Virus record (IMG/VR): IMGVR_UViG_3300024517_000106
Coordinates: 1-24,513 of that record
Reading direction: 5' to 3' (one strand)
Length of the DNA stretch: 24,513 bases
Source: a virus
A model generated the notes under the pieces. It was not told the origin of the DNA and searched no databases. It was given only the letters and a program-made list of their open reading frames with translations. Position 1 is the stretch's first letter. Each line of letters starts with the position of its first letter. This document shows, in pieces, positions 2,966 through 7,300 of the stretch. Position numbers and translations under genes: made by a program.

Positions 2966-3058
2966 GCGAAGCAGAGCAAGATGACAGAAGCCACCTGTAA
3001 TTTTCTAATAAAACAAAGGGGAATAGATGACAAAACACATAAGGGCGTGTTACGATGA
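2942..3058 (+). CDS. Possible 38-residue leader peptide or gene remnant
   Basis: This short reading frame begins at the promoter-proximal ATG and encodes MYTSENSH followed by 30 mostly polar residues. Its TGA (3056-3058) overlaps the ATG of the GNAT-like gene. Its first eight residues match the start of the gene at 4115 (MYTNENSH), so the region is either a real leader peptide coupled to the next gene or the remnant of a duplicated copy of the 4115 gene. The second half contains a 20-base block (3010-3029) identical to 4829-4848, which favours a recombination remnant. Expression is plausible from the promoter position but unproven. Confidence 0.35.
   Translation: MYTSENSHAKQSKMTEATCNFLIKQRGIDDKTHKGVLR
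3010..3029 (+). repeat. 20-bp repeat with ribosome-binding site and ATG, copy 1
   Basis: This block is identical to 4829-4848 and contains AAAGGGG, a TAG and an ATG. At 4846 the ATG opens a real small gene. Here the ATG at 3027 opens only 12 codons, so the initiation site looks vestigial. Confidence 0.8.
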
Positions 3059-3366
3059 TTTTTGAGACATTGTACGAATCGGCAAAACGCAATGAGCTAA
3101 TTTTAATTGATGGTGGTATTTGTCACTGGCATTTGCGCCGTGACAAGCAATTGACCATCCGCGAAATTATCAGCACACGACCTGGTGCTGGTTCCGAGAT
3201 GCTGGCGCAATTGACAGCCGTTCCTGGTGCTGAATCTATATTTGCTAAATGCCCCGCTGATTTACTGGCAAACGATTGGTATAAAAAACGTGGTTTTGTC
3301 TGCGAAGGAACGCAAACAACTAAAGGCGGAAGGAAACTGAAATTGTGGCGGCTGATATTGAACTAA
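3055..3366 (+). CDS. GNAT-like N-acetyltransferase-type protein
   Basis: This 103-residue protein resembles small phage GNAT-fold proteins: a short beta-strand pair at the N-terminus, HLRRDKQLTIREI at about residues 26-38, STRPGAGSEMLAQL (an acetyl-CoA-loop-like Gly/Ala turn followed by a helix), an IFAKCPADLLANDWYKKRGF segment near residues 62-81, and a final strand. The pattern of a lone residue before WYKKRGF is typical of the GNAT C-terminal half. It is shorter than full GNAT enzymes (about 140-170 residues), so activity is uncertain and the substrate unknown. The start ATG overlaps the TGA of the small upstream frame, and the end overlaps the DUF6610-like gene by 22 bases, so the two are probably cotranslated. 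Confidence 0.6.
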   Translation: MIFETLYESAKRNELILIDGGICHWHLRRDKQLTIREIISTRPGAGSEMLAQLTAVPGAESIFAKCPADLLANDWYKKRGFVCEGTQTTKGGRKLKLWRLILN

Positions 3367-4079
3367 TCTATTGTGCTGGTAGTAACCGAATGTTTGCCCA
3401 AATTGCCATTGATGCTGGTTTTTTGTATGGCGCACAGTTACCGAGCACGGTTTACCACTCACTCCATTTTGCGGATCAGAACTGGAAAAACCCAGATCGC
3501 GGAAAATACATATCAGCATTAGCAAAACATCGGCCGTTCATGGCCTCAGTGCTGGACTTTGAGCGTATGGAACAGTTGCCAGAGGTGTTGGCATGGGCAG
3601 AGGATGCGGCGCAGTATATTGAGGTCGTGATAATTATACCTAAGGTGTTTGGTGGCATCTCAAAATTACCTAGCGTGATTGGTGGCAAACCAATTCGTCT
3701 TGGTTATTCCGTACCGACAAAACACGGTGGAACATCCGTTGGTTATTCAGAGTTCGTCGGCTGGCCTGTGCATCTGTTAGGTGGCAGTCCGCAGAAGCAG
3801 ATGAGATTGACGCGATACTTAAATGTTGTCAGCATAGATGGCAATATGCACATGAAAATGGCGATAAGATATAATGCGTTTTTTGATCCTGAGAAAATAA
3901 CAGTGCGTGGATATTGGCCGACGCTTAAAGATTACGACGGTCAAAAATGGGGGGACGGGAGCAAGAAATCAGGTGCTCCATATGAAGCCTTTAGACGTTC
4001 GTGCGTAAACATCATGTCGTTTTGGCAAGACCGTTTTATTTACAGTGGCATTAATGGAGGGTTTGAAGTGGCAGCGTAA
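3345..4079 (+). CDS. DUF6610-like protein
   Basis: This 244-residue protein matches the pattern I know for DUF6610, a phage and bacterial family: a DFE motif at about residue 70, a VIIIPK strand near 96, LGYSVPTKHGGT near 124, WPVHLLGGSP near 143 and VVSIDGN near 163, then a C-terminal segment ending in a Cys-containing helix. The strand/Gly-rich order suggests a TIM-barrel fold like the queuine tRNA-ribosyltransferase superfamily; that link is my inference. The GTG start at 3345 is chosen because GGAAGGA lies upstream and the family's first strand begins at once. It overlaps the GNAT-like gene and is followed by the second copy of the 55-bp promoter repeat. Function is not established; a role in nucleic-acid modification is a guess. 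Confidence 0.6.
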   Translation: MAADIELIYCAGSNRMFAQIAIDAGFLYGAQLPSTVYHSLHFADQNWKNPDRGKYISALAKHRPFMASVLDFERMEQLPEVLAWAEDAAQYIEVVIIIPKVFGGISKLPSVIGGKPIRLGYSVPTKHGGTSVGYSEFVGWPVHLLGGSPQKQMRLTRYLNVVSIDGNMHMKMAIRYNAFFDPEKITVRGYWPTLKDYDGQKWGDGSKKSGAPYEAFRRSCVNIMSFWQDRFIYSGINGGFEVAA

Positions 4080-4083
4080 TATC

Positions 4084-4138
4084 GAATGAGCACCTCTTGT
4101 GCTATACTCCCCCCATGTATACGAACGAGAATTCACAC
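4084..4138 (+). repeat. 55-bp direct repeat with promoter and start codon, copy B
   Basis: This is the partner of 2911-2965, with 49 of 55 identical bases and the same 31-base distance from the left end to the ATG. Here the ATG opens a full gene of 122 codons, so this copy looks like the intact one. Confidence 0.85.
4100..4108 (+). promoter_or_regulatory. Extended -10 promoter, possibly leaderless
   Basis: TGCTATACT is followed by six C residues and then ATG at 4115, the same geometry as at 2927. Transcription starting seven bases after the -10 would begin at the start codon. AGCAC (4089-4093) and GTGCT (4099-4103) form an inverted repeat overlapping the promoter, a possible operator. No -35 match is seen. 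Confidence 0.6.
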
Positions 4139-4483
4139 CGCATCTTCACGAGAAGCGGAAAACAGCGGGCATTATGGCAGCGGTTATTCCATATGGATAC
4201 CCTGCCCGTCACATCCGCATTCCCGCACGAGGGTGCAGACATTTACGGCCGTTCAGCATGGCACTATACGCTAGACGTTGCACGTATGAATCCCCGATAT
4301 ATGCGGCGGCTGGCAAATCATGTCGCTAAATGGAGCAGGGATTATGCAGAGACACTTGACCGCATACAGCGCGAGGGTTGGCAGATTGATGCAATTGATT
4401 GTTTTTTAGTTGAGGCGGCGGAGGGCGAAAGCCTGAAGCCGTCTTTTTATTTGGGGCGGGAATTGTTGCTTGACCCAATATGA
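4115..4483 (+). CDS. Hypothetical protein
   Basis: This 122-residue protein is basic in its first half and acidic near its end; no family is recognised. Upstream in-frame ATGs exist, but 4115 is preferred because it sits at the transcription start expected from the promoter and because its MYTNENSH start is conserved in the small frame at 2942. The middle section (ARMNPRYMRRLANHVAKWSRDYAETLDRIQREGWQ region) is predicted helical. No ribosome-binding site is visible, consistent with leaderless translation. The stop TGA (4481-4483) overlaps the next promoter. Confidence 0.5.
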   Translation: MYTNENSHRIFTRSGKQRALWQRLFHMDTLPVTSAFPHEGADIYGRSAWHYTLDVARMNPRYMRRLANHVAKWSRDYAETLDRIQREGWQIDAIDCFLVEAAEGESLKPSFYLGRELLLDPI

Positions 4484-4489
4484 TACAAT
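4481..4489 (+). promoter_or_regulatory. Extended -10 promoter of the tRNA-like RNA
   Basis: TGATACAAT is an extended -10 element. The expected transcription start, about seven bases downstream (4496-4497), coincides with the first base of the closing stem of the cloverleaf RNA. A weak -35 candidate, TTGTTG, is at 4463. Confidence 0.45.
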
Positions 4490-4496
4490 GAAGCTG

Positions 4497-4585
4497 TCCT
4501 GAAGGTCGCTCTGGGTGTGGCGATGATAAATCGGTTTATCAAAAATAGCGGCGGCTATGTGGGTTCAATTCCCATCCTTCGGGAA
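4497..4585 (+). ncRNA. tRNA-like cloverleaf RNA with long variable arm
   Basis: Four helices fold from this region. The closing stem TCCTGAAGG (4497-4505) pairs with CCTTCGGGA (4576-4584) over nine bases with one G-U. A D-arm-like stem TCGC/GCGA (4506-4509, 4520-4523) has a ten-base loop containing GGG. A central stem TGATAAA/TTTATCA (4524-4530, 4535-4541) has TCGG at the tip. A variable-arm-like stem ATAGC/GCTAT (4545-4549, 4554-4558) follows. A near-perfect T-arm, GTGGG/CCCAT around TTCAATT (4559-4575), matches the tRNA B box GGTTCRANNCC. Departures from a standard tRNA are the lack of two linker bases before the D arm, a six- or eight-base anticodon loop, no A14, and no encoded CCA. I cannot assign an anticodon. 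It may be an aberrant class II-like tRNA or a structured leader of the gene at 4603. Confidence 0.5.
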
Positions 4586-4602
4586 TATTAAGGAATAGAC
4601 AA

Positions 4603-4845
4603 ATGGCACAGAAGGTAATCCAGATCATACCGCTAGTTGATTGGTATGTTTCTTTTGATAATGGCGACGGTACATATTACTCTGTGCCATTAACTGGCGC
4701 ATGGCTAGATGATAACGGGGAAATAGGCGTTTTTGATATAGATGCCTCCGGCCATGTGGAACTATATCCTAGGAAAGAGATGGATTGTGTTGGGATATGG
4801 CACAGGTCACAAATACCAGGTGCTTATAAAAACAAAGGGGAATAG
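4603..4845 (+). CDS. Hypothetical protein
   Basis: This 80-residue, beta-strand-rich acidic protein (DWYVSFDNGDGTYYSVPLTG, then GVFDIDASGHVELYP) is not recognised. The ATG at 4603 has AAGGA (4590-4594) upstream and begins just after the tRNA-like RNA, so it may share that transcript. Its TAG directly abuts the next ATG (TAGATG at 4843-4848). Confidence 0.5.
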   Translation: MAQKVIQIIPLVDWYVSFDNGDGTYYSVPLTGAWLDDNGEIGVFDIDASGHVELYPRKEMDCVGIWHRSQIPGAYKNKGE

Positions 4846-4848
4846 ATG
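4829..4848 (+). repeat. 20-bp repeat with ribosome-binding site and ATG, copy 2
   Basis: This block is identical to 3010-3029. Here the AAAGGGG serves as ribosome-binding site for the small gene that starts at 4846. Confidence 0.8.
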
Positions 4849-4983
4849 GCAAAATATAAATGCGATTCATGCAAAAAGACATTCAAAACGCTGGGCGGAA
4901 TTAGGCGACACAGGGAGCCTTTTCCCCGCGAGTACCAGAATAAAAACAATCGTGTAAGATGCGTACCAAGGAAGGCGAGATGA
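4846..4983 (+). CDS. Small zinc-finger-like protein
   Basis: This 45-residue gene has an excellent Shine-Dalgarno (AAAGGGG) and a TGA that overlaps the next ATG (4980-4983). The product is very basic and begins MAKYKCDSCKKTFKTLGG, with Cys6-x2-Cys9, His22 and Cys39. The first half looks like a C2H2 finger up to the first His (C-x2-C-x3-F-x5-hydrophobic-x2-H), with the second ligand displaced to a Cys. It could bind nucleic acid or protein; no function is assigned. It is a real gene by spacing, coupling and composition even though it is very short. Confidence 0.55.
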   Translation: MAKYKCDSCKKTFKTLGGIRRHREPFPREYQNKNNRVRCVPRKAR

Positions 4984-6412: not shown

Positions 6413-7300
6413 ATGAAACCATACCATAAAAACCCACGCACTATATCAGATTCTCAAAAGGAACAGCTCGCCTCCTCGCTTTTTGAATTAGGCGATCTTT
6501 CCGGCATCATCCACGACCTAAACAGTGACCAGGTGATCGGCGGCAATCAACGCAGCGGTGTATTTGATATTAACGAGTGTGAGATTGAATTGACGCATAC
6601 ATCAGATGAGCCAGATGAGCAGGGAACGATAGCACATGGTTTTATCAAATGGCAAGGCCACCGATACGCATATCGACAGGTGCAATGGACAAGCGAACAG
6701 TGTGAAATTGCAAATATCAGAGCAAATAAATTGGGCGGGGAGTTTGACCTTGAGGCGTTGACGCGGGATTTTGAAACGGCCGTATTGATTGATAGTGGGT
6801 ATGGGCAGATAGAGATTGATGAGATTTTGGCAGAGCTTAAAGCGGGGATGCCATCAGAGGAAAGCAAAGACGCGGAGCCGCAAATATCCCGTGCCGATGA
6901 ATTACAAAAGGAGTGGCAGGTTGAAGCGGGGCAGATGTGGCGATTACCAAGCCGAACGGAGGGACAAGAGCATAGGCTGATTTGTGGGGATTGTACAGAC
7001 GCGGATGTGGTGGCGCGGGTGATGGGTGGGGGTATGGCTGAAATGGTATGGACAGATCCCCCCTACGGCGTGGCGGTAGGTGATAAAAATAAATACCTCA
7101 ACTCGATTGCTCCGAGCAATCGAGTTGAGGAGAATGGCGAAATTATCTTGGATCCTTTCTCTGGTTCTGGCACAACCATCATAGCCGCCGAAAACCTTTC
7201 CCGTCAATGCCGCGCCTGCGAGATAAGCCCACCATATGTTGCGGTAACATTGCAACGCTACCAAGACGCATTCAACATTACGCCGGAGTTAGTATCATGA
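6413..7300 (+). CDS. ParB-like/DNA methylase fusion with internal deletion
   Basis: Residues 1-150 resemble a ParB/sulfiredoxin-like domain, with GGNQR at 43-47, and are typically fused to a beta-class N6/N4 adenine or cytosine DNA methyltransferase in phages. The methylase part has the catalytic TDPPYG at residues 214-219 and the AdoMet-binding DPFSGSGTT at 247-255, followed by ENLSRQCRACEISP. Only about 27 residues separate the two motifs, whereas family members have well over 100 there, including the target-recognition region. A perfect 16-bp inverted repeat (7096-7130) fills the gap, and the frame is kept. The protein (295 residues) is therefore probably inactive as a methylase, or the gap is an assembly fault. 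No clear ribosome-binding site precedes 6413; TATTAA at 6402-6407 sits five bases before the ATG. Confidence 0.75.
   Translation: MKPYHKNPRTISDSQKEQLASSLFELGDLSGIIHDLNSDQVIGGNQRSGVFDINECEIELTHTSDEPDEQGTIAHGFIKWQGHRYAYRQVQWTSEQCEIANIRANKLGGEFDLEALTRDFETAVLIDSGYGQIEIDEILAELKAGMPSEESKDAEPQISRADELQKEWQVEAGQMWRLPSRTEGQEHRLICGDCTDADVVARVMGGGMAEMVWTDPPYGVAVGDKNKYLNSIAPSNRVEENGEIILDPFSGSGTTIIAAENLSRQCRACEISPPYVAVTLQRYQDAFNITPELVS
7096..7130. repeat. Perfect 16-bp inverted repeat at the methylase gap
   Basis: CCTCAACTCGATTGCT (7096-7111) is followed by CCG and its exact reverse complement (7115-7130). No T-run follows, so it is not an intrinsic terminator. It is translated in frame inside the methylase gene, precisely where the central domain is missing. 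Confidence 0.9.

Follow-up and report, generated by a model that had tools for sequence, protein, structure and literature searches.

Class II bacterial tRNAs, i.e., tRNA-Ser, tRNA-Leu, and tRNA-Tyr, are in part charged by enzymes that pay no attention to decoding: bacterial SerRS and LeuRS ignore the anticodon. The 5' leader of E. coli thrS imitates the anticodon arm of its own enzyme's tRNA. Eukaryotic RNA viruses offer well-known examples of full-body tRNA mimics, while the tRNAs for which phages are known are mostly functional ones. Allo-tRNAs are characterized by 12-bp acceptor-T stacks (8/4 or 9/3) and readable anticodons (Mukai et al. 2017, reviewed in PMC7609411), and some members among these and the allo-tRNA-like sequences are described as not functioning in E. 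coli translation (PMC7609411). The variable loop of tRNA-Tyr is cut by defence enzymes, which is countered by phage tRNA-Tyr in case of T6 against Septu and of T5 against retron-Eco7 (PMC13096335); PMC11555353 represents related work.

The locus described here is situated on a 24.5-kb phage contig (the window, i.e., the whole stretch of 24,513 nucleotides that was analysed), which recurs identically inside a 49,347-bp IMG/VR record at an offset of window position + 20,498. A tRNA-like element was placed at 4497-4584 on the plus strand. With class II tRNAs, e.g., Chloroflexota tRNA-Ser (L159, L161), it has in common the acceptor abutting a consensus T-arm, the GG D-loop, and the long variable arm, but it is devoid of the 7-nt anticodon loop, U33, A14, A21, and the encoded CCA, and its similarity to these tRNAs outside the T-arm is not significant. 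With tRNA-Sec (RF01852) it shares a possible 8/5 acceptor-T stack, a long variable arm, and a long anticodon stem, but it scores 23.8 bits against a family cut-off of 47, has a D-stem of 3-5 bp instead of 6, and contains no UCA anticodon in the loop, which places it outside this family. The earlier note had compared the element to allo-tRNAs. This likeness extends to the class II shape and the long closing stem, but not to the T-stem of 5 bp (four Watson-Crick pairs and one G-U pair) or to the anticodon arm, which lacks a canonical loop; the hallmarks of allo-tRNAs and tRNA-Sec are 8/4, 9/3, 8/5, or 9/4 arms together with anticodons that can be used, whereas the element is readable as 7/5, 8/5, or 9/5, and neither an 8/4 or 9/3 stack nor a readable anticodon was found. 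Similar to tRNA-Tyr of T6 and T5, it is phage-encoded with a class II variable arm, but the latter possess normal anticodons and a defence target; among the neighbours of the element, nothing but an MTase is annotated with respect to defence or counter-defence, and no defence target was found near it. Compared to the thrS leader, tRNA mimicry in a 5' leader would be common to both, but in the element it is the anticodon arm that resembles a tRNA least.

Locus, predicted fold, and geometry

The element occupies most of a 119-nt intergenic gap, which is bounded by the stop of the upstream ORF at 4483 and the start of an 80-aa ORF at 4603. No ORF of at least 50 aa across the element is present in the ORF list of the window. 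The features of the locus are as follows:

4481-4489, plus strand: extended -10 promoter-like motif TGATACAAT, predicted from sequence only, overlapping the stop codon of the upstream ORF
4497-4584, plus strand: tRNA-like RNA, five-helix cloverleaf of class II shape (folding, models, descriptor)
4497-4505/4576-4584, plus strand: closing (acceptor-like) stem, 9 bp (predicted fold and pair probabilities)
4497-4505, plus strand: 5' strand of the closing stem; 4499-4505 in the standard 7-bp acceptor reading
4506-4523, plus strand: D-arm-like hairpin (stem 4506-4510/4519-4523) with GG in the loop; U4506 and C4507 readable as U8 and C9
4524-4541, plus strand: anticodon-arm-like hairpin (stem 4524-4530/4535-4541), either 7 bp with a UCGG loop or 5 bp with the 8-nt loop AAUCGGUU
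4545-4558, plus strand: variable-arm-like hairpin (stem 4545-4549/4554-4558), 5 bp with a 4-nt loop (predicted fold)
4559-4575, plus strand: consensus T-arm GUGGG-UUCAAUU-CCCAU (stem 4559-4563/4571-4575; predicted fold and motif searches)
4576-4584, plus strand: 3' strand of the closing stem; possible discriminator G4583 (7-bp acceptor) or A4584 (8-bp acceptor), CCA not encoded
4590-4595, plus strand: Shine-Dalgarno-like AAGGAA right behind the tRNA-like fold, as read from the letters
4603-4845, plus strand: downstream 80-aa ORF on the same predicted transcript as the element; no homologue detected

Folding and pair probabilities recovered all five helices described in the earlier note at their positions, and the textbook T-arm as well as the long variable-arm-like stem are confirmed in the predicted fold. 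The cloverleaf comprises 31 pairs with no mismatch and three G-U pairs; in transcript context, all 31 have probabilities of at least about 0.57, the majority exceeding 0.9. The minimum free energy of -33.5 kcal/mol (z = -3.44) was matched by none of 200 shuffles, and 25 of the 4,308 windows with matched GC content in the 49-kb genome fold as well as the element, which places it in the lowest 0.6%. In longer RNAs the z-score weakens to -1.85 (end at 4610) and -0.84 (end at 4660), and in both the cloverleaf stays the predicted fold. As evidence against chance, folding energy alone is moderately telling, and the cloverleaf shape is far more telling. A generic tRNA descriptor, consisting of a 7-bp acceptor abutting a consensus T-arm, a D-arm with a GG loop, and an anticodon arm, matched once in the 49-kb phage, namely at the element, and not once in 1,240 Mb of Markov sequence simulated with the dinucleotide frequencies of the phage, a rate that serves as a guide rather than a p-value because the descriptor was drafted after the element had been seen and its loop lengths were allowed. 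With one mismatch permitted, nearly all matches in 1.67 Mb of fetched loci were tRNA genes, with L107 as one clear false match.

The geometry, previously regarded as non-standard, is so only in part: an ordinary reading of the acceptor/D region exists, but the anticodon arm is abnormal, A14 and A21 are lost, and the 3' CCA is not encoded. In the ordinary register, a 7-bp acceptor (4499-4505/4576-4582) is followed by U8, C9, and a 3-bp D-stem, with G4583 as discriminator. One Chloroflexota tRNA-Ser gene shows the same AGG-UCGC...GGCG acceptor/D-arm arrangement. The absence of a two-base linker is a matter of register, since U4506 and C4507 may take the places of U8 and C9. Of the features characteristic of tRNAs, the element shows an acceptor stem that adjoins, without a gap, a 5-bp T-arm with a UUCRANN loop, and a D-arm with G18 G19. 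The core residues A14 and A21 are absent, the D-loop CUGGGUGU containing no A, and a 5-bp anticodon stem with a 7-nt loop and U33 was not found in the element, where a 7-nt loop requires a mismatched, slipped register.

In case of the extended -10, the proposed motif is real and puts the predicted +1 at approximately 4496-4497, but a good -35 box is lacking (weak or absent), and the sigma-70 promoter scan does not list the site. Three extended -10 sites were observed on the plus strand of the region. Besides the one at 4481-4489, these are the TGCTATACT sites at 2927 and 4100, which lie within 55-bp repeats (2911-2965 and 4084-4138; 89% identical), each copy preceding small accessory ORFs. The two extra sites suggest a region of separately started accessory genes.

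Resemblance to tRNAs and search for relatives

The fold and the tRNA character of the element are supported by computation, and the earlier tRNA-like reading is well founded on the descriptor control, on the retrieval of tRNAs by a model built from the element only, and on a sub-threshold resemblance to tRNA-Sec. The latter, with 23.8 bits, is the only notable Rfam resemblance; a search with RF00005 (tRNA) gave no match at the element, and neither ARAGORN with default settings nor Rfam at gathering thresholds called anything there. At 80% of its threshold ARAGORN lists the element, which carries no weight because this list comprises 19 hits in 49 kb. The identity as a tmRNA was discarded, none being called by ARAGORN. 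In a search of 45 related phage records with RF01852, the top four were two tRNA loci (29.4 and 24.1), the element (23.8), and a tRNA-Met gene (22.9), all three other loci being ARAGORN-called tRNA genes.

A single-sequence covariance model of the element was run on 780 bacterial genomes, 380 from the phylum of a Saccharibacteria MAG and 400 from that of a Chloroflexi MAG. It yielded 36 hits, and 17 of the 18 that were fetched coincide with ARAGORN tRNA genes, mostly for Leu, Ser, and other types and including the genes of L159 and L161; the exception is L163 without an ARAGORN tRNA. Conversely, for a model of 16 class II tRNAs the sole phage hit was at the element (20.2 bits, E = 0.003), with an alignment that sits in another register and leans on the T-arm. 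A degenerate motif that runs from the 3' strand of the variable arm through the T-arm was detected in a further 15 viral contigs. The match falls within an ARAGORN tRNA gene in 13 of these, within an unannotated fold of tRNA-like shape in a tRNA array in L172, and in a stretch not folding as a tRNA in L169. The fold in L172 (3246-3345), missed by ARAGORN, has a 9-bp closing stem and a long variable region and belongs to a large phage tRNA array. Outside the T-arm, pairwise similarity between the element and tRNAs does not exceed the shuffled control (19 of 200 as good). Likewise, pairwise alignment gave no support beyond the T-arm for descent from a particular tRNA isotype; thus, shape and T-arm carry the tRNA character, not a traceable descent.

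A divergent homologue was not found in the collections searched, and the element is known from one sequence. A search of viral contigs with the flanking genes returned the same phage and one distant neighbourhood (L138) without the element, whereas exact and degenerate DNA patterns of the element matched only the same phage, ordinary tRNA genes, or unrelated DNA. Its covariance model detected no homologue on 80 related terminase loci, 50 whole records, and 38 cellular loci. The region 2680-2754 of L053, from a related phage, was rejected as a homologue; it represents a class I tRNA with an altered, 6-nt anticodon loop.

Possible roles of the element

Our preferred, though tentative, reading is that 4497-4584 encodes a mimic of class II tRNAs that would not decode under standard rules, forms the first element of an accessory-gene transcript, and acts in trans. 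We infer its transcription, processing, trans action, and target as follows. The extended -10 promoter would launch the RNA about one base ahead of the closing stem, and due to this start a short accessory-gene mRNA would carry the element at its 5' end. The element would adopt an L-shaped tRNA body with T-loop/D-loop elbow, acceptor, and variable arm, and host tRNA 3'-processing may release it from the mRNA. Since its anticodon arm forms a long hairpin that lacks a normal loop, the RNA is not expected to decode by standard rules. In trans, the mimic would occupy host proteins that read the body or the variable arm of tRNAs; candidate targets are an anticodon-ignoring synthetase (e.g., SerRS or LeuRS) and a defence enzyme that cleaves tRNAs. 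We favour this trans-acting mimic since the element retains what proteins binding the tRNA body would read and has its decoding part closed. By analogy, it is tempting to speculate on a phage class II tRNA decoy, its anticodon loop closed to a hairpin and its elbow, acceptor, and variable arm kept, that binds host synthetases or tRNA-cutting defence enzymes, although we consider this specific role rather doubtful. If the element is a tRNA body with a closed anticodon arm, it would provide a clean test case for non-decoding tRNA shapes against tRNA-cutting defences or in host-enzyme binding. Standard tRNA finders pass over such genes, which constitutes a blind spot.

The main rival of the trans-acting mimic is a cis-acting leader, somewhat unlikely in our view, in which the tRNA-like fold remains on the mRNA of the 4603 gene and governs its stability or translation, be it by protection of the 5' end, by binding of a host tRNA-binding protein (as ThrRS on the E. 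coli thrS leader), or by a Shine-Dalgarno sequence freed on folding. The layout agrees with such a leader: the fold starts within about a base of the predicted transcript start and stops 5 nt ahead of the AAGGAA ribosome site, no terminator was found between the element and the 4603 gene, and the cloverleaf survives in longer transcripts. However, any tRNA gene within an operon would show the same layout. Similarly, a CCUU in a strand of the closing stem is complementary to AAGG of the ribosome site, but such a complementarity easily arises by chance. Furthermore, a full tRNA elbow and a variable arm exceed the needs of simple 5' protection, and the 4603 gene is without a detected homologue or known function.

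Unlikely is a divergent class II tRNA, perhaps Sec-like or allo-tRNA-like, that still works and decodes by means of an unusual loop, e.g., CGG or UCG in a 6- or 8-nt loop. Odd-loop tRNA genes do exist in phage tRNA arrays, class II RNAs with foreign anticodons are chargeable by SerRS (PMC7609411), and tRNA-Sec is both the sole Rfam match of note and, given that acceptor/T is readable as 8/5, similar in its stack to bacterial tRNA-Sec. On the other hand, a 7-nt loop with U33 is missing and the 7-bp stem would need opening; A14 and A21 are missing, CCA is not encoded, and no second tRNA gene was found in the 49-kb genome. The same losses of anticodon loop, A14, A21, and CCA would fit a decaying, functionless remnant of a captured host tRNA gene, i.e., a pseudogene or an old attachment site, and according to PMC9897764 integrating elements commonly leave tRNA fragments in prokaryotes. 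Such a remnant is improbable, considering that none of the 31 pairs is broken, that the element is whole rather than a 3' fragment, that the promoter-like site lies exactly upstream, and that no integrase was noticed among the listed ORFs of at least 90 aa, as read from the ORF list. Very improbable, finally, is a chance fold of the intergenic region; the single known sequence and the 25 equally well folding GC-matched windows are in agreement with it, but the descriptor results in random sequence and in the fetched loci argue against it.

Neighbouring genes and repeats

Upstream of the element, a DUF6610 protein (PF20314, E = 3.9e-35) is encoded at 3345-4079, for which a single distant viral relative (L138) was found. 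In the 49-kb record of the same phage (L124), an effector-associated domain, EAD7 (E = 1.5e-17), was detected in a phage protein at 4061-4435. EAD7 is a domain of bacterial conflict systems, and the protein is possibly a counter-defence factor. Together with a phage protein containing a TPTATPT linker, we take the EAD7 domain as a hint of a Chloroflexota host.

A 26-bp ribosome-site repeat (3010-3035 and 4829-4854; 96% identical), which contains AACAAAGGGGAATAGATG, is common to two small genes. In the region of the methylase gene, a strong inverted repeat is located at 7043-7142 with a self-complementary stretch of 35 bp (7096-7130; 97%), and this repeat folds better than the tRNA-like element.
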